Source: a virus
IMG/VR virus record: IMGVR_UViG_3300032893_000221
Span: 1 to 30,406 of that record
Strand: one strand, 5' to 3'
Length of the DNA stretch: 30,406 bases
Positions 66 to 14,620 of the stretch are shown piece by piece. A program made the translations under genes and the position numbers. Below the pieces are notes generated by a model. It was not told the origin of the DNA. It did not search any database and worked only from the letters and a program-made list of their open reading frames with translations. How positions within the stretch are numbered: position 1 is the stretch's first letter; the number at the start of each line of letters is the position of its first letter.

Positions 66-671
66 GTGGAAACGAGGGCCTCCGCCGCAGTCGCCAAGCT
101 GATTCGACAGTACGGGCCGACGGTCATCTCAAGGCGCATCGGCTGCACGCTCAAGGGCGCGAATGACCACGCGACGGGCACGACTCCACGCCTCAAGGTC
201 CGCCAGCTCTACCGCGACCACTACGGCATCGCCCTCGAGGACTGGGAACGGCCGGATGGCCCCCCCGAGCCACCACGCTCTCCGCCCGACTGCGGGAGCG
301 CTGTAGCGCGCGTGGAACCCATCGTCGAGGCGCCTGCGCCCCCTCCCTTGCCCGCGGGTCCTACGGCGACCCCCGACGCCTTGCAGACGGTCGTGTCGCT
401 CTTGGCGGAGACTCGGGAGCTCATTGCGGAGGCGAGGCGCGACCTCGATACGCCCTACGCTGCGAAGGCGGCCTTGATTGCGTCCGCGACACGCCTAACC
501 CAGCTCCTCGCCAAGATGACCGGCTCGATGGAGGTCACCCAATCGATGATTGTGCGCTCGTCCTCGTGGGGGCGGATACTCCGCGCGTTCGAAACGGTGT
601 TCTCCCGTCACCCGGAGGCATCGCAGGCGCTGACGGAATTCGCGAAAGAGCTGGCGGAGATGGGAGAGTGA
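66..671 (+). CDS. Probable terminase small subunit
   Basis: This 201-residue protein starts at GTG 66 and ends with a 4-base GTGA overlap into the large terminase. Residues about 8-55 look like a compact helix-turn-helix: an alanine/isoleucine-rich pair of helices, a basic turn, then a segment ending YGIALEDW that resembles the last helix of small regulatory HTH domains. A proline-rich linker (about 65-105) leads to a mostly helical C-terminal half. Small terminases bind the packaging site on phage DNA and deliver it to the large subunit. The assignment rests on the DNA-binding look and the position directly before terL, because the sequence itself is not a clear family match. No good ribosome-binding site precedes GTG 66. 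A transcriptional regulator is the main alternative. Confidence 0.6.
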   Translation: METRASAAVAKLIRQYGPTVISRRIGCTLKGANDHATGTTPRLKVRQLYRDHYGIALEDWERPDGPPEPPRSPPDCGSAVARVEPIVEAPAPPPLPAGPTATPDALQTVVSLLAETRELIAEARRDLDTPYAAKAALIASATRLTQLLAKMTGSMEVTQSMIVRSSSWGRILRAFETVFSRHPEASQALTEFAKELAEMGE

Positions 672-2365
672 AACCCCGCGCCTCCCGCGCCGCTTCGATG
701 GGACGCGACCTTGGACGAATCGCGGAACACGTGGTCGCACGCCACAATGCCCTCGCGTGGCCGTCTCCGAAGTGGGCGCACGACCCCGTGGGGTTCATGC
801 GGGCGTTCCTCGCCTTCGACCCATGGGACCGCCAAATCGAGATTGCAGAGCTCGTGCGGGACAATCCCCTCGTCGCCATTGCGACGGGCCACCGCATCGG
901 AAAGACGCAACTCGAAGGCGCCCTCGCCGTTTGGTTCTATTGCTGCTTTCGGGATGCGCGCGTCATCCTCCTCGGCCCCACAACGGACCAAATCGATGCT
1001 GCGGCCTATCGCAGCACGCGTCAGATTCTTTTGCAGAGTGGCCGATGCGTGCAGTGTGCAAGGGAGAACCCCGACGGCCCAAAACCGTGTCCCCACTCCG
1101 CACTCATCACCGCAGAGATTCACTCGAGTTCCCACCACGGCATTCGATCGACGAACGACCTCAGGGAGATTCGTGGCGTCAACGTTCGCAGTCCCGAGGC
1201 TGCGCAAGGCATCGCCGGTGAGAATATCTTGATTATCGCCGATGAGGCGAGCGGCGATTACCTCGATAAGATTATGGGCGCCATGACGGGCAATCGCGCG
1301 GGTGGCGCGAGGTTTCTTCTACTTGGCAATCCCATTCGCGCAGAGGGTGAGTTCTTTGAAGCGTTCAACCTGAAGAAGGATTTCTACGTAACGCGGCGGA
1401 TCTCGAGTGAGGAGACCCCCAACGTCAAAGAGGACAGGGTGGTAATCCCGGGTCTGGCAACGCGCGGATGGGTGGCTGAGCAAGAAGCCATCTACGGGCG
1501 AGACTCCCCATTCTTCAAGATGCGCATTCTCGGAGAACACGTATTCGCCTCCGAGGGGCAAATCTTCCCCTACGCGATGCTCGAAGAATCCTCGCAACGG
1601 TGGAAGGCCCTCCGCCACCCCGATACCGGGAACCATCTCGCTACGCCCTCCGGACCCCTCGTCATCTCGTGCGACCCCGCCGAGTCCGCCATGGGCGACG
1701 ACGCGGTGTTCATGGTCCGCCGTGGTCACGATGTCCTGGAGCTCTATCCGCGCCGTGGCATCAACGCTGACGGCCACGTCCTCGAGGTGATGGGAATTGC
1801 AAACCGTTACCGCCATCCCGGCGAGATGGTGACCTTCGTCCTCGATGCAGAGGGTGACGTCGGCGCGAGGGTCAAAGGGGCGTTCATCGCCTACATCGAA
1901 GCGCGCCGCCATGACCGGGTGAACGAGTGGCTGGCCATGCGGTACATCCGCACGAGCAAGAAGGCGGAGAGAGACCCCGACCGCTACCTGATGGTCCGCG
2001 ACGAGCTCGCGGCCGCGTGTCGGGATTGGTTCGAGGGAGGCGGCTGCATCCCCGACGACGCTAAGCTGAAAATCGAGCTCTCCAGGTTTGCATGGCTCCC
2101 CCACGTCAGCGGCCGGGCGAAATGCACCTCGAAGGATGGCCCCGGCGGCCTTAGGTCCCAACTCGGGCGCTCCCCCGGGCGCGCGGACGTTCTCATGCTC
2201 TCGACGTGGGTACGCCCCGATGTGCCCCTCCCCATCGAGCGGGCGCCATCCCCTGCGACCACTCCCCAGCAAGCCCTCGCCCAACTCCAGCAGCCGCAAC
2301 CGGGCAATCGCGCGGCGGCATGGGACCCGTACGCGGCTCTCAGGCAGTTCTACAACCCTCGGTAG
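668..2365 (+). CDS. Terminase large subunit (packaging ATPase/nuclease)
   Basis: This is the DNA-packaging motor, 565 residues from GTG 668. That start gives a 4-base overlap with the upstream stop and follows a purine-rich GGAGATGGGAGA site; the frame is open further upstream, but only over the end of the previous gene. The ATPase domain shows a Walker A GHRIGKT at residues 74-80, a Walker B hydrophobic strand ending in D192-E193, and a coupling-type LLLGNP segment soon after. The C-terminal RNase H-like nuclease domain has plausible metal-binding aspartates at D336 (SCDPAES), D393 (VLDAEGD) and D507 (GRADVLML). Large terminases translocate DNA into the prohead and cut the concatemer. Position matches Mu gp28. 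Confidence is high because both motif sets are in the expected order and spacing. Confidence 0.95.
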   Translation: MKPRASRAASMGRDLGRIAEHVVARHNALAWPSPKWAHDPVGFMRAFLAFDPWDRQIEIAELVRDNPLVAIATGHRIGKTQLEGALAVWFYCCFRDARVILLGPTTDQIDAAAYRSTRQILLQSGRCVQCARENPDGPKPCPHSALITAEIHSSSHHGIRSTNDLREIRGVNVRSPEAAQGIAGENILIIADEASGDYLDKIMGAMTGNRAGGARFLLLGNPIRAEGEFFEAFNLKKDFYVTRRISSEETPNVKEDRVVIPGLATRGWVAEQEAIYGRDSPFFKMRILGEHVFASEGQIFPYAMLEESSQRWKALRHPDTGNHLATPSGPLVISCDPAESAMGDDAVFMVRRGHDVLELYPRRGINADGHVLEVMGIANRYRHPGEMVTFVLDAEGDVGARVKGAFIAYIEARRHDRVNEWLAMRYIRTSKKAERDPDRYLMVRDELAAACRDWFEGGGCIPDDAKLKIELSRFAWLPHVSGRAKCTSKDGPGGLRSQLGRSPGRADVLMLSTWVRPDVPLPIERAPSPATTPQQALAQLQQPQPGNRAAAWDPYAALRQFYNPR

Positions 2366-2389: not shown

Positions 2390-3826
2390 GTGGCCTCCCT
2401 CCGCGAACATGTAGCGGCGCTCTTAGGTGTTTCGACCTACCAGCCCCCATCGAGTGATGTCCCCGGCATAGCGCTCACGAGTGACATCATCGACCGCGTT
2501 CGTAGGTCGATTGGCGGCCAGCTCGAACCGCTACCCATCACCAAACTTCATTGGTTCCTACCGGACCTCGAAGTTTGCCAAACGCAAGCGGACCGCGGCG
2601 ACATGCAACTCGTCGGAATGCTCGGACAGAGTATGAGGCGGGACGGTGTGCTCCGAGGCCTCCTCGACGTCCGCACCTCTATCACATCGCTCCCTCGGAG
2701 GTTTCACGGTGGCACAACGAACCTCGGACGAGAAATCATCGAGGCACTGCAGGCAAAGAATGGGAGCGACCGCAGCGTCTTTGACGAGATGTTCCCGGCG
2801 AATGAGCTTTCTCGCTTCGCAGAGGACGGCATCGTGTGCGGCGTTGGCGTGGGAGAAATGGTCCCCGTCCAGGGCCGAAACTTTCCGGTCTTCGTCCGAA
2901 GGCTTCCGCAAAACCTTTGGTACCTCTGGCAGAGTAACCAATGGTTTTACCGCAGCATCGCGGGCCTGATTCCCATCATCCCGGGGATGCCCGATGCGAA
3001 CGGACATTGCTGGATGTTTTACACGCCGGGCGGCCGCGTCACGCCGTGGAACTATGGCCTTTGGCCGGCGCTTGGGCGCTCCTTCATTGCGAAGGAGCAC
3101 TCCTTCTACGCGCGGCAGAACTACATCGCCAAGCTTGCCAACCCCGCGCGCGTAGCAGAGGTCCCGATTGGAGCTACGGAACCCCAAAAGCAGGGGTTCC
3201 TGCAGAACATCATCGCATGGGGCCTGAACACGGTATTCGAATTGCCCGTGGGCTGGACCGTCAAGCTCCTCGAATCGAACGGGCGTGGCTTCGAGGTCAT
3301 GCAAGCGGACATCGACACTTGCAACAAAGAGTATGCGACCTCTCTTTGCGGCAACACCGTCATGATGGACGGCGGCGTAGGGTTTCAGAACGCCGACATC
3401 TTCCGCATGATGAGCGAGAATCTCATACGGCAGACGGCGGAGTCCCTTTGCCATGTGATCAACACGCAAGGCCTCCCCTATTTCATTGCCAATCGATGGG
3501 GCGACGGCGCCCTCGAGAATGCGATTGCCATCGAGTACGACACGTCCCCGCCGCAGGATAAGAAGGTTCAGGCGGACACGTTCGTGTCCCTGGGCACCGG
3601 CCTCAAGGCCCTGGCAGAGGGCCTTGCCCTCCACAAGCGGACTCTCAACGTCGACGAGATTGCCGCGCGCTTTGGCATTCCTCTCAACGAACAGAACCCC
3701 ATCCTCATGGCGGGCGCCGAAGACCCACCCGAGCTCTCGGCGGACCTCGTGCCTCCCGCGGCCAGTCTGGCGCCAGTGCCGACCGAAAAGAAGCAGCTCA
3801 ATGGCGCAAGCGCCGGAGTGAACTGA
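2390..3826 (+). CDS. Portal protein, Mu gp29-like (DUF935 type)
   Basis: The protein has 478 residues from GTG 2390, 24 bases after terL. Portal proteins form the dodecameric ring at one head vertex through which DNA enters and leaves. The region GVLRGLLDVRTSITSLPRRF (about residues 84-103) looks like the conserved N-terminal part of Mu gp29-type portals, which carry a short segment describing repeated sampling of 'inner' and 'outer' helices followed by a tryptophan-rich core. Length is close to that family. The gene ends TGATG, overlapping the start of the protease by one base, which suggests translational coupling. Identification uses similarity of pattern plus position between terminase and protease; no catalytic motif is expected. 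Confidence 0.85.
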   Translation: MASLREHVAALLGVSTYQPPSSDVPGIALTSDIIDRVRRSIGGQLEPLPITKLHWFLPDLEVCQTQADRGDMQLVGMLGQSMRRDGVLRGLLDVRTSITSLPRRFHGGTTNLGREIIEALQAKNGSDRSVFDEMFPANELSRFAEDGIVCGVGVGEMVPVQGRNFPVFVRRLPQNLWYLWQSNQWFYRSIAGLIPIIPGMPDANGHCWMFYTPGGRVTPWNYGLWPALGRSFIAKEHSFYARQNYIAKLANPARVAEVPIGATEPQKQGFLQNIIAWGLNTVFELPVGWTVKLLESNGRGFEVMQADIDTCNKEYATSLCGNTVMMDGGVGFQNADIFRMMSENLIRQTAESLCHVINTQGLPYFIANRWGDGALENAIAIEYDTSPPQDKKVQADTFVSLGTGLKALAEGLALHKRTLNVDEIAARFGIPLNEQNPILMAGAEDPPELSADLVPPAASLAPVPTEKKQLNGASAGVN

Positions 3827-5832: not shown

Positions 5833-6459
5833 ATGTTTACCGTCGGCGCTCCCATTGACATAGCCACGTGGCCGGTCATGCCGGCTATGCGAACGTGTCG
5901 CGAATGCGGGCCGACGTCGACGTTGCGGTTTCCGAAGAATGGGCACGTGTGCTTGGACTGCATCGGCGGCCAAGCGTGGCTTCGATACCGAGAGAAGCGC
6001 GGCGAGATTCTGGCGAAACAAGCTGCTGAATATGCGGCCGATTCGAGCATAAAAAGAGCGCGGGTCGATGCGTATCGGTGCAGGTATAGAGAGCGTATCA
6101 GCCAGGCCAATTATTATGCGCGAATCAAAAATACGCCGGCATGGCTTCTAAAGGGCGCTGCGCGCAGGGCGAGGGAGCGCGGCATTCCGATCGATATTAC
6201 CGCGGATGACATTCACGTGCCCACGCATTGTCCTGTTTTGGGCATTCCTATCGTCGTTGGAGCCCGCGGGTTGGGCACGCGAGACAATGCGCCGAGTCTA
6301 GATCGCATTGACCCATCAAAGGGTTATGTGCGTGGGAATGTTGCTGTCATCTCGTTTCGTGCGAATCGCATTAAGAATGATTCGACGCTCGAAGAAATTG
6401 AGGCCGTCGCGGCATACGCGCGCAAACATTCACCCCAAGAAAAGGTAATAATATCATGA
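5833..6459 (+). CDS. HNH/His-Me-finger type endonuclease, probable homing endonuclease
   Basis: The reading frame gives 208 residues. A four-cysteine zinc ribbon lies at C22, C25, C40 and C43, followed by a long basic helical region (about 50-118). The C-terminal core carries CPVLGIPI (133-140), SLDRIDPSKGY (155-165), RGNVAVIS (167-174) and RANRIKND (176-183). That C-terminal pattern is recurrent in free-standing phage HNH-like nucleases. The start is uncertain: no good ribosome site precedes ATG 5833, and ATG 5878 or 5887 would keep the zinc ribbon. Bases 6061-6120 are 32/60 G+C, visibly poorer in GC than the structural genes around it. It separates the decoration protein from the capsid gene and overlaps the capsid start by 4 bases. 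Acquired mobile DNA is the best explanation; the exact biochemical activity is inferred. Confidence 0.75.
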   Translation: MFTVGAPIDIATWPVMPAMRTCRECGPTSTLRFPKNGHVCLDCIGGQAWLRYREKRGEILAKQAAEYAADSSIKRARVDAYRCRYRERISQANYYARIKNTPAWLLKGAARRARERGIPIDITADDIHVPTHCPVLGIPIVVGARGLGTRDNAPSLDRIDPSKGYVRGNVAVISFRANRIKNDSTLEEIEAVAAYARKHSPQEKVIIS

Positions 6460-7637
6460 GCGTGGGCGCGCTGACACCATCCTTCTTATTCGAGATCGAG
6501 CGACGGCTTCGCAACATCGAGGAATTCGAGTTCGCTCGAATGCTCACGAGCCGCGTGATTTGGTGGAACAAGGTCACCAAGGTTTCGAACATCGCCGGCA
6601 AGTCCGAGCGCGTGACCTGGTTCCTCTCGTCCGCCAACATTCGGCAGGTGACGCCTGCGGATGGGTCGTTCATCAACGCGGGCGACATCACCTTCGAGCA
6701 GCTCGTAACGCAGACCGCGGAGTATTTCCCAGCGCTGCACACGGACGGCTTCCAGATTGCGAAGCGTGAGGTGATGGCCCTCGACGGTACCGGCCTCGAC
6801 GCCTTGCAAACCATCATGAGCGGATGGGGGGCGCTGAGCGCCTATTACCCGCAACGCCTGATGGCGCAAATCATCTTGAACGGTGCGGCCACGGACGGAA
6901 GCGCGAACGCATACGATGCGACGCCCTATTTCCTCAACTACACGACGACGAGCACGTTCCCAACGGTGAACGGTCACCCGGTCAACCCGTACTTCCCCGG
7001 CTACGGAGGGTATGCGAACTGGTTTACGGGGTCCTCGTCTGGCAATTACCCAGGCGCTCTACCCATCGACGATGGGCAGACCTTCGACACGGCGGTCACG
7101 AATCTCGCGAAGATTGTGTCCTACATCGCGGGAATCTCGATGCCCAACGGCCAAGACCCCAGAATGTTGCAGGCTGCACATATCCTGCACCCGCCGCGCA
7201 TGAAGCTGCGCGTCCAGCAGCTCACGAACGCCAAGTTCTACGGAGCGACGGCGTCGAGCGGCGCGGGCACGCAAGACATGGCGGATGGCGTTCGCACCAT
7301 CTTCGACGTCGGCGCAGGGTGGATGCTCGAAGCCCAGGAGCTTGCCGCGGCGAGGACGTACACCTTCAAGGCGGCCAATGGCTCGACGAAGACGGTGAGC
7401 GGTTCGGACACGACCTTCTACATCATCACGACGGAGAACCTCACAAGTCAGCTTGGCGGTCTCCTACTGACGATGTTCGAGCCGTTTAAGACGACCTTCT
7501 ACTCTGGCGACAGCGGTCCGAGCGCGGGACTCGACGCGATTTTGGATCGTTCGAACGTCCTCGAATACCACCACCAGGGTGTGATGGCCGCGAATTACGG
7601 GCATCCTTACGGTCTTTTCAAGTGCTCGCCGACGTGA
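6456..7637 (+). CDS. Major capsid protein, Mu gpT-like
   Basis: The 393-residue protein starts at ATG 6456 within ATGA, overlapping the end of the endonuclease gene. An AAAGG at 6441-6445 lies 10 bases upstream and is the only visible ribosome site, so it sits inside the endonuclease coding sequence. The protein forms the icosahedral head shell. Position after protease/scaffold, the length, the long N-terminal helix, and segments such as PALHTDGFQIAKREV and LPIDDGQTFDTAVTNL fit the HK97-fold, gpT-type head subunit. It is followed after 15 bases by the connector gene. No other gene in the head block has the right size and position, so the assignment is firm even though fold recognition was not run. 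Confidence 0.85.
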   Translation: MSVGALTPSFLFEIERRLRNIEEFEFARMLTSRVIWWNKVTKVSNIAGKSERVTWFLSSANIRQVTPADGSFINAGDITFEQLVTQTAEYFPALHTDGFQIAKREVMALDGTGLDALQTIMSGWGALSAYYPQRLMAQIILNGAATDGSANAYDATPYFLNYTTTSTFPTVNGHPVNPYFPGYGGYANWFTGSSSGNYPGALPIDDGQTFDTAVTNLAKIVSYIAGISMPNGQDPRMLQAAHILHPPRMKLRVQQLTNAKFYGATASSGAGTQDMADGVRTIFDVGAGWMLEAQELAAARTYTFKAANGSTKTVSGSDTTFYIITTENLTSQLGGLLLTMFEPFKTTFYSGDSGPSAGLDAILDRSNVLEYHHQGVMAANYGHPYGLFKCSPT

Positions 7638-7652
7638 ACGGGGGACGCCTCG

Positions 7653-8435
7653 ATGTCGTTTCCGTACATCGACCTTGCGGGCGTCCAGCTTCGTTCCGTC
7701 CTACGGCCTAGCTACTTCACCGACGTCGAGGCGCTAACGGCGGGGTTCACGGCGCAATCGATTGCGACGAACACCTCGCCCATCAACGCGCAGATGCGAA
7801 AGCGCTACGGGGGCGTCCTCCCGTGGGGCCAATCCGTTCCGCTTCTCGTTCCAGCGGGAACGACGCCTCCGAACGTCCAGCTTGCGGGAAGGCCCACGCT
7901 CGGGTCTTTGCAGATAGCGATTCAAATCACCACCGGCGGGCCTCTGGGAACGGCCATCTTCCAATGGTCGCAGACGGGAGGCGCGCCGTGGACTACAGGC
8001 GTGCTCACGGCGGCGTCCGTGCCTCTCGGGATGACAGGAATGTCCGCCCTCTTTCCCGTCGGTACTTACTCGACCTCGGACGCCTACGCGGCGGCCACGG
8101 TCGTACCCGAAGTGATTCTCCAGTGGCTCACCACGCTCGTGACGATGGATGTTCTCATTCGCCACGGCATCAACCCTAATGACCCCCTGTCCGAGCTCCT
8201 ATCGAAGCGCGTGGACCTTGTCCGCGAGCAGATGCAGGAAGCCGCGAACACGAAAGATGGTCTATGGGATTTGCCGCTCAGCGAAGACCTTGGGAGCGCC
8301 GTCGATACGGGCGGCCCTTTTGGATACAGTGAGCAGTCGCCGTATACCTGGCAGTACCGCCAGGAAAGAGCCGCATACCGAGAGGGCATCACTGGTACTG
8401 GCACGTGCTCACCTAACAAGCTTGTGGGCAGTTAG
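7653..8435 (+). CDS. Head-tail connector, gp36-like (DUF1320) with inserted beta domain
   Basis: The protein has 260 residues. The first 70 and last 110 residues look like the two halves of a Mu gp36-type connector: an N-terminal helix pair with RKRYGGVLPW, and a C-terminal helical half containing RHGINPNDPLSELLSKRVD. Between them, about residues 75-147, sits an extra beta-rich module containing TTGGPLGTAIFQWSQTGG. Typical gp36 proteins are roughly half this length, so the insertion explains the size. The same module occurs in the tail sheath of this window (residues about 108-183 there). Connectors of this type bind below the portal. The next gene begins directly at the base after the stop. 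Confidence 0.65.
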   Translation: MSFPYIDLAGVQLRSVLRPSYFTDVEALTAGFTAQSIATNTSPINAQMRKRYGGVLPWGQSVPLLVPAGTTPPNVQLAGRPTLGSLQIAIQITTGGPLGTAIFQWSQTGGAPWTTGVLTAASVPLGMTGMSALFPVGTYSTSDAYAAATVVPEVILQWLTTLVTMDVLIRHGINPNDPLSELLSKRVDLVREQMQEAANTKDGLWDLPLSEDLGSAVDTGGPFGYSEQSPYTWQYRQERAAYREGITGTGTCSPNKLVGS

Positions 8436-8840
8436 GTGTCCGACTCGGGAATTGCGGAGCTCGATGCCATGATTGCGACCTTGCGGCGCCTATCAGGTCC
8501 CAAAGTCGGCGAGCTCGTGGCGACGAAGGCGGCGCCCAAGGTCGATGCCGCTATCAAGGCGACGGCACGTTCGGGGACAACGCCAGAGGGTACGACGTGG
8601 AAGCCAAAGAAGGATGGTGGCAGACCGCTTGTGAACGCCGCGGCGGCCATCAGTACCAAAGGCCTCGGAAACCTCGTGGTGACCACGCTGACGGCGCCCA
8701 CATCGTTTCACCACAAGGGGCTTGGAGGAAAGCCCACGCGCCAAGTCATCCCCGATAGCGGAACGGTCCCTGATGGCGTAAAGAAAGCCGTCCTATCAGC
8801 GGCGACGGAAGTCTTCTCCGAGCTCACGAGGAGGACGTAA
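8436..8840 (+). CDS. Tail completion / virion morphogenesis protein, gpG-like
   Basis: This 134-residue protein starts at GTG 8436, immediately after the preceding TAG. The N-terminal half is helical; the middle contains a basic, glycine-rich stretch (TPEGTTWKPKKDGGRPLVN) followed by strands, then HHKGLGGKPTRQVIP. The motif of a basic GTxWxP segment with a later HxxG and RQ(V/I)P is characteristic of phage virion morphogenesis proteins such as Mu gpG and P2 gpS, which act at the head-tail junction or in tail completion. In Mu this gene lies before the protease; here it lies after the gp36-like connector, a modest reordering. Confidence 0.7.
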   Translation: MSDSGIAELDAMIATLRRLSGPKVGELVATKAAPKVDAAIKATARSGTTPEGTTWKPKKDGGRPLVNAAAAISTKGLGNLVVTTLTAPTSFHHKGLGGKPTRQVIPDSGTVPDGVKKAVLSAATEVFSELTRRT

Positions 8841-8844
8841 GGCC

Positions 8845-9717
8845 ATGCCCTTCGGGCCCCCTGGATTCACCGGTCCCACGTCCGAAAGCTCGCTCGTGGC
8901 GCTTGCGACGTCCCTACAGGCCTACTTCACGGCCATCGGCAACACGTCCCCCGTGTATCTCGGCCTCAAGTACCGTGACACCTGGGATACGTCGCGCGTC
9001 GTGGTCATCGACGGGGAGTTCGACGGCTCGAACACTCCGAAGGTGCGCTCCGCCGGGAAGTTCGGCGCCCCCTGGCAAAAGAACAGCACGAACCCGCGTG
9101 AGCTCGTCGCATGGTCGCGACCCGTGACGCTTTCGATTCGCGGCGTCGACGCGACGAACCCGGATTCGGAAGCGGCGCAAATTCAAGCGACCGAAAATCT
9201 CATCGAGGCGACGGTGCAGGGCCTACAGAACGCCATGACCGTGGATCCGGTGACGGGCGCCAATGTTGGGGTGGGTCAAGCCAACATCGATTGGGCCGAT
9301 AGCAAGGCCTTATGGGTAGATCCGGGCACCGCGACGCAACAGACATGGGGAAAAGAATTCATTGTAGGGTTTACCTACAAGTGTGTCTTCTTTGACCTCG
9401 CGGACTTCGTGACGGTGCCCTCTCCGAATCTGCAGAAGGGCCCGCTTCTGAACACCATGCAGAGCGGCATCAACGCCTTCGTGAAGTCCGCGGCGTCTGG
9501 CCCTGGCACTGCGGTCATCAGCGGCATGGGCTTCTGCAACCCAGCGCAGGTGGGTCAAAATCTCGTGCTCTCGGGCGCAGCATCGAGCGCCAATAACGGG
9601 GCCTTCCCTATCGTTGCATTCATGACGTTCAACACCCTCGTCATCTCGAACGCGCTCGCCGTGGCGCCCGATGCGAACAACGGTGCAATCGTGTGGAGCG
9701 TTCAGCCTCCCACGTAG
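8845..9717 (+). CDS. Head-tail joining or tail terminator protein with C-terminal beta domain
   Basis: The protein has 290 residues, with ATG 8845 four bases after the previous gene. It sits in the place of Mu gp37/gp38, between gpG and the sheath, where tail-terminator and neck proteins are expected. The first 200 residues mix helices and strands with no recognisable catalytic motif. Residues about 205-290 form a separate beta module (GTAVISGMGFCNPAQVGQ, NNGAFPIV, NGAIVW). This last piece looks like a small Ig-like or fibronectin-like decoration domain of a kind common on phage surface proteins. The family of the N-terminal part is not recognised; the joining role is inferred from gene order. 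Confidence 0.5.
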   Translation: MPFGPPGFTGPTSESSLVALATSLQAYFTAIGNTSPVYLGLKYRDTWDTSRVVVIDGEFDGSNTPKVRSAGKFGAPWQKNSTNPRELVAWSRPVTLSIRGVDATNPDSEAAQIQATENLIEATVQGLQNAMTVDPVTGANVGVGQANIDWADSKALWVDPGTATQQTWGKEFIVGFTYKCVFFDLADFVTVPSPNLQKGPLLNTMQSGINAFVKSAASGPGTAVISGMGFCNPAQVGQNLVLSGAASSANNGAFPIVAFMTFNTLVISNALAVAPDANNGAIVWSVQPPT

Positions 9718-9755
9718 ACCTTTGGTCCTAATGGCCAAGCCATAGAGGGCTTGAC

Positions 9756-11246
9756 ATGGGAATCCCTGCAGTCACGGTTAAGAAGAACCTCATAGGTGGT
9801 TCCCCAGCACTCCAGAGCACGCAAGGCATTCTTGCTGTCATCGCATCGGCGTCGACGGGCTCGGCCCTTCCGCCCACGATGCTTACGAACCAGACGCTCG
9901 CGACATCGACGTTTGGTTATGGGATGCTCCCCGAGTGCGCCGTATACGATATCAACGTCAGCGGTCTTCCCGTTGTGGCGTTGGCGGTCAACCCATCCGT
10001 TGCGGGCTCGTACTACCAAAGCACGTTCGTAAAGAACATCAGCGGGACGTCTACCTCCGTCGTTACGACAGGAGCGACGAATCCCTACCTGCACTATGAG
10101 GTGCAAATCAACATCGTCACCGGTGGGACCATCGGGACGGCTGGCATCACCTACACGTGGTCTGTCGACGGCGGCAACGTAGTCAGCCCCGTGACGGCCC
10201 TCGGGACGTCGTCCACGCTGTCGATTCCCAACACGGGCGTGAGCTTCGCCCTTGCGGCGGGCACGCTCACGGCGGGAGACAACTGGACCATCTACACGGA
10301 GCGCCCGCTTCTCAATAACGCGGACATTTCGACTGCGGTCGCGACCCTTGGCAACACGAAGCTGCCGTGGGAAGGCGTCCTCATCGATTGCCAGTACGGG
10401 ACCGGCACCGTGTCGCTTATCGATACGTGGCTCGCCGGGCGCGAGGCCAACGGACAATTCAACTTCGCCATCATCAACACCCGCTTCCTACTGGAGCCGA
10501 CGCCCACGGCGGAAGCTCCTTCCGTGTATGCTGCATCCATTACGGCGCAGTCAAATCAGGATTCCTCGAACCGGCTCTGTCTCTGCGCAGATGGGGGACT
10601 TCTAACGAGCCTCATCACGGGCTACACGACGAAGTTCCCCACGTCGCTTGCGCTTGCAGGGCAGACGATGGCGGTCACGCCGAACATCGGCACCGACCCG
10701 GCTTATGTGGGCCTTGGTCCCGTGGAAGGCTTCCAGATTAGCGCGAACGGGAACCCCAACGATTGGGATGAGTTCCTCTATCAGAGCCTCGACTCTGCGC
10801 GCCTAACGACGCTTCGCACCTTCGCAACGGGCGGGCCTACTGGCACATTCATCACGGACGCCAACGTGCTCATCTCTACGGGCTCGAATGTCTACTGGCT
10901 CCAATTGCTGCGCGTCCTAAACAAGGCGTGCTCGATTGCCTGGCAGATTCTCAATACGCAGCTCTCTCGCGGCGTGGCGACGGTCTACAACGCGACGACG
11001 GGCGCGGTGAACATCAAAGAGACAGCCGCGCAGACCATCGAGAATCTGGTCAACCCGGCGCTCCAGAGTGGCCTTTCGGGTCAGGTGACGGCGGTTCAAT
11101 TCCTACTGAATCGCGACGACAACTTGACCACGCCTAAGGCGCCCATCAACGCGCAGGTGGCGGTGGTCCCGCTGGTGTACCTCAAGAACATAATTGTTAC
11201 GGCCAGTCTCGTCCGAACCATCTCGGCCCCGGCGACGGGCGCATAG
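9756..11246 (+). CDS. Contractile tail sheath protein
   Basis: The protein has 496 residues. It is the polymer that surrounds the tail tube and contracts on infection, so its presence makes this a myovirus. The C-terminal region contains the typical sheath ending, with an inter-subunit strand near APINAQVAVVPLVYLKNIIV, after a domain with ALQSGLSGQVTAVQF. The N-terminal part contains an inserted beta module at about 108-183 (IVTGGTIGTAGITYTWSVDGG) homologous to that in the connector at 7653. Mu gpL is about 495 residues, so total length is normal. It is followed after 9 bases by the tail tube, the standard pair. Confidence 0.88.
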   Translation: MGIPAVTVKKNLIGGSPALQSTQGILAVIASASTGSALPPTMLTNQTLATSTFGYGMLPECAVYDINVSGLPVVALAVNPSVAGSYYQSTFVKNISGTSTSVVTTGATNPYLHYEVQINIVTGGTIGTAGITYTWSVDGGNVVSPVTALGTSSTLSIPNTGVSFALAAGTLTAGDNWTIYTERPLLNNADISTAVATLGNTKLPWEGVLIDCQYGTGTVSLIDTWLAGREANGQFNFAIINTRFLLEPTPTAEAPSVYAASITAQSNQDSSNRLCLCADGGLLTSLITGYTTKFPTSLALAGQTMAVTPNIGTDPAYVGLGPVEGFQISANGNPNDWDEFLYQSLDSARLTTLRTFATGGPTGTFITDANVLISTGSNVYWLQLLRVLNKACSIAWQILNTQLSRGVATVYNATTGAVNIKETAAQTIENLVNPALQSGLSGQVTAVQFLLNRDDNLTTPKAPINAQVAVVPLVYLKNIIVTASLVRTISAPATGA

Positions 11247-11255
11247 GAGTCGATT

Positions 11256-11777
11256 ATGGGTGCAGGCGCTGACGAGATTTTCCGTATCGGTGGCTTTATG
11301 CTCTCGCGCACGAGCGTCAAAACGCTTGTCGACGGCGTGCCGTACACCGGTATCGTCGAGGTGAACGGCGAAGAGGCGCGCGAAGGCGAAATCGTCCACG
11401 GCCAACGCACCGACGGTACACCCTTGGGCCTCACGTCAGGCCTCTATATGCCGGGGCCGTTGACGTTCAAAACGTACATCGATTCAGGCGAGCAGATGTT
11501 GCAGCAACTGTCCGTCCTCGGCCTTGGCAGCTTTGGCAACTACCTGTTCACGTTCATCCTGGAGATTTTCGAGAACCCACTTCTGCCTGCGATGACCTTG
11601 ACGTGGAATAAGGTCAAAATCGAGAAGCGGAAATTCGCACTGCCGACAGATACCACCGCACTCATGTACGAATTTGAGTGCAAGCACCTTGGAATGCAGG
11701 GTGTGGGCGCTGGCGTGGGCCTCTTTGGTCTACCGAGCCAGCTTGCCAACGTTTCGAGCATCACGAACGGACTCTAA
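11256..11777 (+). CDS. Tail tube protein
   Basis: The protein has 173 residues and starts at ATG 11256, with AGGAG overlapping the sheath stop region. It is beta-rich with motifs such as GQRTDGTPLGLTSGLYMPG and LTWNKVKIEKRKF, consistent with the beta-barrel of stacked-ring tail tubes (Mu gpM class). The tube is the DNA channel inside the sheath. Position right after the sheath and before the chaperone pair is the conserved order. The following 112 bases are non-coding and unusually structured (see separate entry). Confidence 0.8.
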   Translation: MGAGADEIFRIGGFMLSRTSVKTLVDGVPYTGIVEVNGEEAREGEIVHGQRTDGTPLGLTSGLYMPGPLTFKTYIDSGEQMLQQLSVLGLGSFGNYLFTFILEIFENPLLPAMTLTWNKVKIEKRKFALPTDTTALMYEFECKHLGMQGVGAGVGLFGLPSQLANVSSITNGL

Positions 11778-12604: not shown

Positions 12605-14620
12605 ATGGCGGACAACACGGCGACATTTGCACTTCGCATCGATGCCGATGGTGAGCCTGCGGCGGAAGCGGCGGCGGAACTTGAGAGGTTCCGAGGCGCC
12701 ATCGAAAAGAGTCAGCAAGCGGTCAACGATTACCGAAAATCGCTCCGTATGCTCAAAGGCACTTCCGACGAGGTACGAGATGCGCGCGAAAAGTTGAAAG
12801 CGGCCATCGCCCTCGAGCAAGGGAAGATTGCGCAGAACAATCTCGCCATCCTGAAGCTTGGAGGCTCCTATGAAAAGCTTGCCCGTGCTGCGCGCAAGAA
12901 CCGTGATGCCACCGAAGCCAACAAGCACGCGATTGCGGCCATAGGCGGCCCCGTGAAGGTCATGGCCGAGCGTTTCGACAGCGTTAAGGCGATGCTCCCC
13001 GCCCTCGCCACGGGATGGGGCGCATTCGCCGCAGCCATTGCCGTCAGCGTCACGGCTATCGGCCTCGCCACGGCGGCCATCGGGGGTCTTCTCGTCAAAT
13101 TCAACGAATGGCTTGCGACGACGGCGGACGCGAACCGAAATCTGCGCCTCACGCGCGAGGCCTTCGCAGGCAACACGAAGAATGCGGAGGCGTGGGGCCA
13201 CATCATCGATTGGGCGAGCGAAAAGACGGCCCTCACCACTGCGCAACTGAATCAACTTGTCATCGCGACCGAGAAGACGTTCCGAGGCTTCCGCCTTTCG
13301 GGCCAAGGGATGGTCGATGCCTTCAAGGCCACGAGCATGGCGGCAGGGGCGGGGCGCGAGGACGTGGCGGACTTCTTCAAGGAGCTCCTCGAGCGAGGGA
13401 AGCTCAGCGGGCGCTCGTTCATCGCCTTTCCGGACCTTGCACGCTTTCGCAACGCAGGCATCGACGTAACGAAGGTTTACAAGGAGCTTGGCATCTCCTC
13501 TGCGCAAGGCCTCCGAGGGAGCCTTGTGTCGACGGACAAGCTCGCCGCGGCGCTGGCCAAAGTGGCGGACAATCGGTTTGCCGAAATCAACGCTAAGAAG
13601 ATGCTTTCATTGGGAAATCAATGGGACAGACTGAAGGACAATTTCACCCGTTTCACGAATGACCTTTCGGCGGAGGGGGGAGCGCTGGAGCCGCTGCTCA
13701 AGGCCCTGAAACAGGTAGCCGACCTCTTCGACCTGACCACGGAGAGCGGCCAAGAGCTCAAGAGAGTCATTACGGCTTACGGAGGGGCCATCTCCACGGC
13801 CATTGTGGCGAATTTGCCGGCCATCAAATCGTTCGTGGTCGAGGGAATTCGTATTGCGGGCCTTTTCCTCGAGGCGACCGCCGCCGTCGTGCGCTTTTCG
13901 CAGTCGGGAACGGGGCTTTTCCTCATCCAATCCACCCTTACGGCCCTTGCAGCGACGATGGCGGGGATTGTCATTGTAGGCGCTGCCGTCGCTGCAGCAT
14001 TCGTGGCCATCGGCGCCGCCATTGTCGGCCTTGGGAAGCTGGTAGAGGTGACCGTTGACCCCTTCTTTGCACTCACGCGAATGGACTGGGCAAGCATCGG
14101 AACCGCCATCGTCGACGGCATCAAATCGGGCCTCGAGGCGGCCATCGGCGGCCTAAAGGCAGCCGTTGCCGACATGGGCGAGGGCATCAAATCCACGTTC
14201 AAGGAGATTCTAGGCATCTCGAGTCCCTCGAAGGCTTTTGCAAGGTACGGCCTACAATCCGGGCAGGGCTACCAGCAGGGCATCAAGGCGGCATCGGGCC
14301 CCGTCGCCTCATCGTCGGCCGCCATGGCCACTACAGCGACTTCGGCCGTCGCCTCGACGTCATCCCCATCGGCCACGGCAGCGGCCGCGCAGGCGCCTCC
14401 CTCGTCGTCGCAATCGGCCCCCTCCCAAGCGGCGTCTTCTGGGCGCACCGTCACCGTGGGCACGATCGAGAACCACTTCCACATCTCGGGCGGCAACGCC
14501 GAAGAGGTAAAGGCGGCGCTCTCGTCGCACTCGTTCCTCGAGGACTTCGGGACGACGATTCGCCAGCTCCTACAGTCGCAAGGCTACCCCACGGGAACTC
14601 CCGCCACTTCAGGAGGCTAG
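12605..14620 (+). CDS. Tape measure protein
   Basis: The protein has 671 residues from ATG 12605. The first 115 residues are a charged coiled-coil-like helix. A long hydrophobic segment (about 133-164) and another (about 438-480) follow, with alternating helices between them, then the GISSPSKAF segment seen near the ends of many tape measure proteins. A Ser/Ala/Pro low-complexity linker at about 566-615 leads to a short C-terminal beta/helix piece. Tape measures fill the tail lumen, set its length, and insert into the host membrane during DNA ejection. Position after the chaperone pair is diagnostic. The protein is fairly short, suggesting a tail of modest length. An AGGAGG at its end serves the next gene. 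Confidence 0.88.
   Translation: MADNTATFALRIDADGEPAAEAAAELERFRGAIEKSQQAVNDYRKSLRMLKGTSDEVRDAREKLKAAIALEQGKIAQNNLAILKLGGSYEKLARAARKNRDATEANKHAIAAIGGPVKVMAERFDSVKAMLPALATGWGAFAAAIAVSVTAIGLATAAIGGLLVKFNEWLATTADANRNLRLTREAFAGNTKNAEAWGHIIDWASEKTALTTAQLNQLVIATEKTFRGFRLSGQGMVDAFKATSMAAGAGREDVADFFKELLERGKLSGRSFIAFPDLARFRNAGIDVTKVYKELGISSAQGLRGSLVSTDKLAAALAKVADNRFAEINAKKMLSLGNQWDRLKDNFTRFTNDLSAEGGALEPLLKALKQVADLFDLTTESGQELKRVITAYGGAISTAIVANLPAIKSFVVEGIRIAGLFLEATAAVVRFSQSGTGLFLIQSTLTALAATMAGIVIVGAAVAAAFVAIGAAIVGLGKLVEVTVDPFFALTRMDWASIGTAIVDGIKSGLEAAIGGLKAAVADMGEGIKSTFKEILGISSPSKAFARYGLQSGQGYQQGIKAASGPVASSSAAMATTATSAVASTSSPSATAAAAQAPPSSSQSAPSQAASSGRTVTVGTIENHFHISGGNAEEVKAALSSHSFLEDFGTTIRQLLQSQGYPTGTPATSGG

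Follow-up and report, generated by a model that had tools for sequence, protein, structure and literature searches.

According to the accessible text of PMC9022992, phage Ig-like domains occur in tail fibre, baseplate, tail tube, major capsid and Hoc proteins and are exchanged between phages; those of the tail tube are non-essential, yet some mutants without one infect less well. For the added beta-sandwich domains of type 2 and 3 tail sheaths, the accessible part of PMC9230969 proposes adhesion or cementing, and in the Mu sheath it is domain III that reaches outward and differs among phages (PMC11915804, accessible part). Here we describe a beta module of about 90 residues carried by both the head-tail connector and the tail sheath protein of the virus recorded in IMG/VR as IMGVR_UViG_3300032893_000221. 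The window analysed is the entire record, 30,406 bases long, which is possibly a fragment itself.

Like the promiscuous Ig-like phage domains, the module is a small beta domain, found in several classes of virion protein and missing from homologues. Two of its host classes, head-tail adaptor and sheath, lie outside the five named in the accessible part of PMC9022992. The likeness is one of behaviour and not of established topology: whole-protein models contain six or more module strands, Big_1, Big_2, I-set and FN3 were matched by none of the 30 module sequences scanned (Pfam, E 0.1), and the Ig-named matches were weak and limited to one sequence each (Ig_GpJ_C 0.014, Big_7 0.017, Ig_TMEM131L_3 0.081). 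As for the added sheath domains, the account in PMC9230969 is, in its accessible part, confined to sheath proteins, whereas here one family is tracked into connector, capsid, baseplate and bacterial proteins.

The family consensus also holds an Asp-box (BNR) hairpin. The consensus of this motif is (S/t)-X-(D/n)-X-G-X-(T/s)-(W/f/y), and no known structure lacks the D/n or the aromatic residue (PMC2716378, accessible part). The family consensus is roughly PPxVxLxG...xVxIxITTGGxxGTAxFxYSxDGGxTW...xVxLxxTGLxLxFxxGTYxxxDxY over about 90 residues and includes S-x-D-G-G-x-T; 7 of the 30 module sequences touch PF02012 (best E 0.012), all under its cut-off where shown. In contrast to Asp-box proteins, a single box lies inside a larger module domain, with no propeller repeat. 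In the window the connector hairpin SQTGGAPW has no D/n and the sheath hairpin SVDGGNVV no aromatic residue, whereas other family members keep the motif. The best Pfam E-value of the module scan belonged to Lipocalin_4 (PF13648; 3.6e-5 in 2 of 30 sequences), which was matched neither by the window connector nor by 20 rescanned sequences, the window sheath module included. The PHROG family phrog_17982, of unassigned function, gave a partial match to one of the 30 sequences at E 0.01; positions 19-58 of its 390-position profile align with the window sheath module (E 8.8e-5). Literature searches returned no title or abstract opening that names the module and no paper for 'DUF2586' with 'phage', most subscription papers being outside their reach.

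Homologous modules in the connector and the sheath

The initial annotation had noticed shared stretches in the two proteins (connector residues about 75-147, sheath residues about 108-183). These stretches are present, and BLASTP, shuffling and cross-detection with hidden Markov models (HMMs) agree on their similarity. Because the first strand (PPNVQLA/SVVTTG) is part of the module, its true extent is somewhat longer than first noted (Table 1). BLASTP of the full proteins gave 27.3 bits (E 4e-4, connector 87-152 against sheath 115-184), and that of the module segments alone 25.8 bits (E 1e-5). The Smith-Waterman score of the two segments was 79, against a shuffled mean of 34.0 (sd 6.3, maximum 75), and none of 5000 shuffles reached it, so that the pairwise alignment suggested as a check in the annotation does give significant similarity.

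A sheath-module HMM was built from 38 non-redundant modules of other phages, excluding the window and its ten closest loci (L001-L005, L012, L024, L036, L042 and L094; the more distant relative L075 was kept). It detected the window connector with 53.3 bits (independent E-value, iE, 1.3e-14) and the window sheath with 71.0 bits (4e-20), the best iE among 10020 reversed ORFs being 3.3. In the opposite direction, an HMM of five connector modules found the window sheath weakly (iE 5.6e-4), together with six other sheaths at 1e-15 or below and three capsid modules at 2e-18 or below. In stop-to-stop ORFs, HMM alignments cover residues 69-157 of the connector (iE 1.1e-24, with a model that includes the connector copy) and 104-192 of the sheath. 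No third copy was detected among window ORFs of at least 50 codons (next match iE 9.8). At the DNA level, the two copies are no more alike than expected by chance (their score is reached in 23 of 200 codon shuffles). Protein sequence comparison thus shows the two window copies to be homologous, one module in two unrelated structural proteins.

The host proteins and their predicted structures

The window sheath matches DUF2586 (E 3.1e-8, 33.6 bits, above the curated cut-off of 26.4), the tail sheath family phrog_907 (E 5.7e-11) and three records of named phages. Its model (pLDDT 85.5, pTM 0.86) confirms the sheath fold: the best 50 VIA matches are chains of contractile tails or injection systems, many titled sheath, with Z 20.0-27.9. 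Module strands are modelled at residues 102-104, 115-122, 132-136, 154-157, 162-166 and 176-182. Of the 496 residues of the window sheath, 327 can be aligned with 3j9q_A, a short pyocin sheath of 385 residues (Z 27.1); this leaves the sheath module as a likely addition, the alignment giving end points only.

The connector gene is flanked by a capsid-like ORF on one side and a weak tail-completion match on the other. Its product has no adaptor match in Pfam or PHROGs (no PF07030, no phrog_195), and the whole protein has no relative among named phages at E 1. The related connector of locus L005 is 67% identical to it over the flanks, and a partial model of this relative matches the JBD30 connector 8rka_B (Z 11.3, 110 aligned residues, rmsd 3.2); the next 15 VIA matches are phage tail, adaptor (T7-type) and neck entries at Z 5.2-7.7. 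An adaptor fold is thus recovered by way of the L005 model, with the caveat that arrangement alone can give helical models such Z values. We call the window connector adaptor-like, and do not assign it to PF07030 (the Mu gp36/phrog_195 type). The L005 model has a mean pLDDT of 57, with values below 50 at residues 118-214, 225-294 and 391-443; the remaining flanks and most outer strands score above these stretches.

Structure prediction, also proposed as a check in the annotation, bears out the common origin in part. Where both are resolved, the L005 connector model and the sheath model have the same strand order (a short strand, VxIxI, GTAxFxWS and three strands in the second half); the connector side of this comparison is the partial L005 model, with its low-scoring inner array.

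Filled and empty homologues

Scanning with the connector alignment returned 109 relatives in IMG/VR, of which the best 80 loci were retained, and two genome loci. The sample then comprised 88 connector-like ORFs, duplicate contigs included. In 63 of these the connector is empty, with no module at iE 0.01 and flanks joined over 4-12 residues; the other 25 are filled, and the module is therefore an insertion in the connector. The flanks of filled connectors are separated by 91-103 residues around a single module, by 174 around a split one (L075/L110) and by 233-279 around arrays of half modules. Among 68 distinct connector flanks, 53 are empty, 11 hold a single module, three an array and one a split module. 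A branch of the flank tree with 98/99 support separates all filled connectors from the rest, so that a single gain or a single loss suffices; the array state needs three changes.

A similar picture was obtained for capsid proteins. The major head protein of the Thermus phage Riverbug, which has no module, aligns end to end with the capsid proteins of L027, L045 and L070 except for the module. Compared with Riverbug, L027 gives two matching pieces, and the unmatched middle is the module. Some other sheaths carry additional copies, two in tandem in L059 and an extra one in a second loop in L063. Presence and absence of the module at one place are shown, in these alignments, for homologous connectors and for homologous capsid proteins. 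The insert consists of some 90 residues with beta-type sequence, and no mobility family (intein, homing endonuclease or retroelement) is among the family matches of the connector or of the module sequences.

Separate histories of the two copies

In 70 sampled loci a connector accompanies a sheath ORF longer than 250 residues (filled connectors in 21, empty ones in 49, some duplicate contigs included). Every one of these sheaths carries the module, which indicates that the sheath copy is old in this phage family. In 18 further loci no sheath ORF of this length was within reach, and one sheath fragment of 201 residues had no module match.

In a module tree of 70 sequences and 92 columns, with 21 of 67 inner branches open, five single connector modules share a clade (97/95) with modules from two capsid proteins and with one L059 tandem sheath copy, and the window sheath module clusters with six other sheaths (99/94). 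Forcing the connector modules and the sheath modules of their own lineage into one clade costs 37 log units (approximately unbiased (AU) test, p-AU 0.025), and forcing all sheath modules into one clade costs 41 (p-AU 0.006). On this tree the connector copy is a separate acquisition, akin to capsid modules and to one L059 tandem sheath copy and not to its own sheath. The annotation's view of one and the same module in both genes therefore holds for homology, whereas the copies were acquired separately, as their different, well supported clades and the AU test indicate. Recent copying between the two window genes was also considered and is disfavoured by tree position, by the AU test and by the absent DNA similarity.

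Half-module arrays and a split connector

In other phages, a junction between the two halves of the module, matching that of the window connector (Table 1), is occupied by repeated half modules or by a foreign domain. The connectors of L005 (the same protein in contig L108) and L109 contain three first halves followed by three second halves (A-A-A-B-B-B), and that of L096, from an Acidobacteriaceae genome, three first and two second halves (A-A-A-B-B). In L075 (8130-9161, minus strand; the same gene in L110), an unrelated domain of GGTGYT type, with matches to PHROG families for tail fibres, baseplate and head closure, is present at the junction.

Outer halves are 56% (A) and 60% (B) identical to single modules, against 43% and 47% for inner halves. 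Almost all of the B gap lies in the last eight residues, and without these the outer and inner B halves are 56.7% and 55.0% identical to single modules. The same residues carry the pairing signal: of 72 within-locus pairings, the nested one gives the strongest correlation between the identity tables of A and B (r 0.41), and it falls to 23rd of 72 (r -0.06) once they are left out. The array data fit nesting and, equally, separate tandem duplication of halves. We dropped nested pairing as an established reading, its signal lying in those eight residues and L096 having three A and two B halves. A tentative and rather doubtful proposal is that the module may be its own landing site, where repeated insertion between halves would nest modules (A1-A2-A3-B3-B2-B1 in L005/L108 and L109). 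If this were true, nested arrays would surround the neck ring as a collar growing by recursion.

The module family in other phages and in bacteria

A DNA pattern derived from the motif matched 87 IMG/VR stretches. The patterns were drawn from connector and sheath sequences and the family searches were seeded by such family-derived patterns, so that the counts hold for the sample and not for nature. With a stricter DNA pattern, no loci beyond those already in the sample came up. The module profile marks 113 ORFs at iE <0.05 in 96 sequences (some duplicates), 73 of which are matched by a sheath profile made from the region that follows the module, 13 of these 73 with two or more module matches; the remaining 40 include several truncated sheath starts and are not a count of non-sheath proteins.

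Hosts other than sheaths are diverse. The capsid proteins of L027 and L045 belong to the major head protein family phrog_247, and that of L070, which aligns to them, also carries the module; L194 carries it too, with weak capsid matches under the cut-offs. In L195, a Baseplate_J protein (E 8.9e-14), the module is internal. It precedes, and lies outside, the profile-matched part of the adaptor of L081 (PF07030, E 3e-10), and stands near the N-terminus both in L061 (tail protein, phrog_1608) and in Mx4_p64, a hypothetical protein in a baseplate gene run. Further hosts are connectors and several unidentified ORFs of tail regions. The labels 'lipoprotein-like' (L097) and 'baseplate-type' (Mx4_p64, L044, L067 and L072) are our own, with no family match behind them, and the identities of L009, L048 and L085 come from reading the loci, no Pfam family being found at 0.01. 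The phage-database search suggested in the annotation thus returned relatives in the sheath, adaptor, capsid and baseplate J proteins of other phages, and the profile matches show the family in at least these four kinds of predicted virion protein. Together with its absence from homologous connectors and capsid proteins, this supports the mobile domain that the annotation had suspected. Searched alone against named phages, the sheath module gave nothing at E 10 and the connector module one weak record.

A Myxococcales genome served as query, and of 57 bacterial genomes sampled from its phylum seven match, the query genome included. Five module ORFs from the other genomes were inspected in their loci: four resemble sheaths and probably lie in prophages, and the fifth (L185:169-2508, minus strand) is the flagellar cap protein FliD, in which the module stands between FliD_N and FliD_C (module iE 1.4e-6 within its genome). 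The module may be at home in flagellar proteins as well. A link to FlgK was hinted at by a weak VIA match (9gsx_X, Z 3.7); PF21158 was unmatched in 28 genomes of the same phylum, and no flagellar chain is among the best 60 of 63 PDB matches of the family profile at E 10. The query genome itself encodes a chromosomal protein of 1268 residues with two tandem modules (L097:3664-7467, plus strand).

In L078 (2371-4704, minus strand), a long run of near-identical WKSTDSGATWALIQQLGTQT repeats follows one module copy.

Gene context in the window

The ORF list and the Pfam and PHROG profile matches delineate a Mu-type run of structural genes, in which the two module carriers are placed as given in Table 1.

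Table 1. Modules, module landmarks and structural genes in the window
Feature	Position	Strand	Basis or remark
Beta module in connector	7842..8108	+	residues about 64-152, about 89 residues
Connector insertion relative to empty connectors	about 7830-8102	+	residues 60-150; ends judged by eye
Degenerate Asp-box hairpin SQTGGAPW (Asp to Thr), connector	7968..7991	+	sequence, family consensus, Asp-box consensus of PMC2716378 (accessible part)
Junction of first and second module half, connector	7992..8015	+	comparison with L005/L108, L109, L096, L075/L110
Beta module in sheath	10041..10307	+	residues about 96-184, about 89 residues
Asp-box-like hairpin SVDGGNVV (aromatic residue lost), sheath	10161..10184	+	sequence; consensus of PMC2716378 (accessible part)
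Terminase	566-2365		Mu-type structural run
Mu-type portal	2390-3826		Mu-type structural run
Capsid-like ORF, upstream of connector	6456..7637	+	capsid label from position only; no family match
Head-tail connector gene (adaptor-like), module carrier	7653..8435	+	260 aa
Possible tail completion gene	8436..8840	+	phrog_26 E 0.012 only
Gene without assigned role	8845-9717		between tail completion candidate and sheath
Tail sheath gene, module carrier	9756..11246	+	496 aa
ORF in tube-gene position	11256-11777		no family match
Tape measure gene	12605-14620		Mu-type structural run

The product of the gene without assigned role ends in a small separate domain of 76 residues (window about 9487-9714; NNGxFPI...DANNGxIxW), whose HMM matches are confined to the same gene of near relatives (11 ORFs, duplicate contigs included). 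Between two head-region genes, ORF 5833-6459 (208 aa) has the appearance of a free-standing HNH endonuclease.

Discussion

We consider it likely that the module belongs to a promiscuous family of phage beta domains, its sheath copy being long-standing and its connector copy gained separately. One alternative is that, within this lineage, the connector gene received a copy of a sheath segment, which would make wider mobility unneeded. The modules are indeed about 2 kb apart, and wherever a filled connector and a sheath ORF occur together the sheath has a module (21 of 21 loci). This co-occurrence says little, since sheaths beside empty connectors carry the module as well (49 of 49). The grouping of connector modules with capsid modules and one L059 sheath copy instead of their own sheaths, the rejection of a single clade (p-AU 0.025) and a DNA similarity not beyond chance render the duplication unlikely. 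Less probable still is convergence on a short beta-hairpin motif (Asp-box, GTxxF-WS-DGG) in place of descent of a whole domain. It would account for the strongest shared block being an Asp-box-like hairpin, a motif found in different folds according to the accessible part of PMC2716378, and for the PDB matches of the family profile (best 60 of 63, E 10) falling mostly on short Asp-box stretches in sialidases and proteins of the Ycf48 type. It would not explain why the HMM match to the window connector covers profile positions 7-93, second half included, nor why strand order agrees between the two models; moreover, each window copy lost a different defining Asp-box residue, which argues that the motif itself is not under retention.

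A further question is what the module does. That it could be a structural brace for assembly, contributing to contacts of sheath or adaptor subunits and not to adhesive display, is a real possibility, on balance doubtful. Its presence in 70 of 70 sampled sheaths suggests importance there, and cementing is what the accessible part of PMC9230969 proposes for added sheath domains. On the other hand, homologous connectors (63 of 88) and the Riverbug capsid protein do without it, the alignment of 3j9q_A to most of the sheath leaves the module as a likely addition, and the recurrence of the module in capsid and baseplate proteins and in a bacterial FliD fits better with a context-independent role. 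The module being constant in the sheath and not in connectors suggests that its role may differ between host proteins.

Several observations weigh against a promiscuous domain gained separately by an adaptor-like connector. A local adaptor HMM misses the window connector (E 1.5), and plain Foldseek on the L005 model found nothing significant, no match being better than E 0.25. With this and a pLDDT below 50 in the inner array, the fold of the connector module is given by its outer strands only. The p-AU of 0.025 is modest, the tree, with 92 columns for 70 sequences, has 21 of 67 inner branches open, and the innermost L005 copy falls outside the connector group. The one change between empty and filled on the connector tree speaks for infrequent movement within connectors, and possibly for a loss. 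Most module ORFs (73 of 113) are sheaths, in a sample whose patterns were seeded from connector and sheath sequences. Finally, no recombination junction or donor was found at the DNA level.

Under the promiscuous-domain reading, the module would have been a long-standing part of the tail sheath in this lineage, and a second copy would have been gained separately in a loop between two helices of the adaptor-like connector, the direction being taken as gain and not loss. It would settle in loops where the chain exits and returns close together, so that the host fold could still assemble, and would spread by ordinary recombination between phage genomes and not as a self-moving element. On the virion it would presumably face outwards, where, as proposed for phage Ig-like domains, it may add weak binding to host surface glycans or stiffen neighbouring subunits.

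Promiscuous phage beta domains are already known, and no Pfam family covers this module whole. It links proteins that are rarely treated together, namely sheath, head-tail adaptor, major capsid, baseplate J and bacterial FliD. How discontinuous domains multiply could be tested on the half-module arrays, and the filled and empty connectors and capsid proteins constitute natural before-and-after pairs for the tolerance of an insert and for its benefit.

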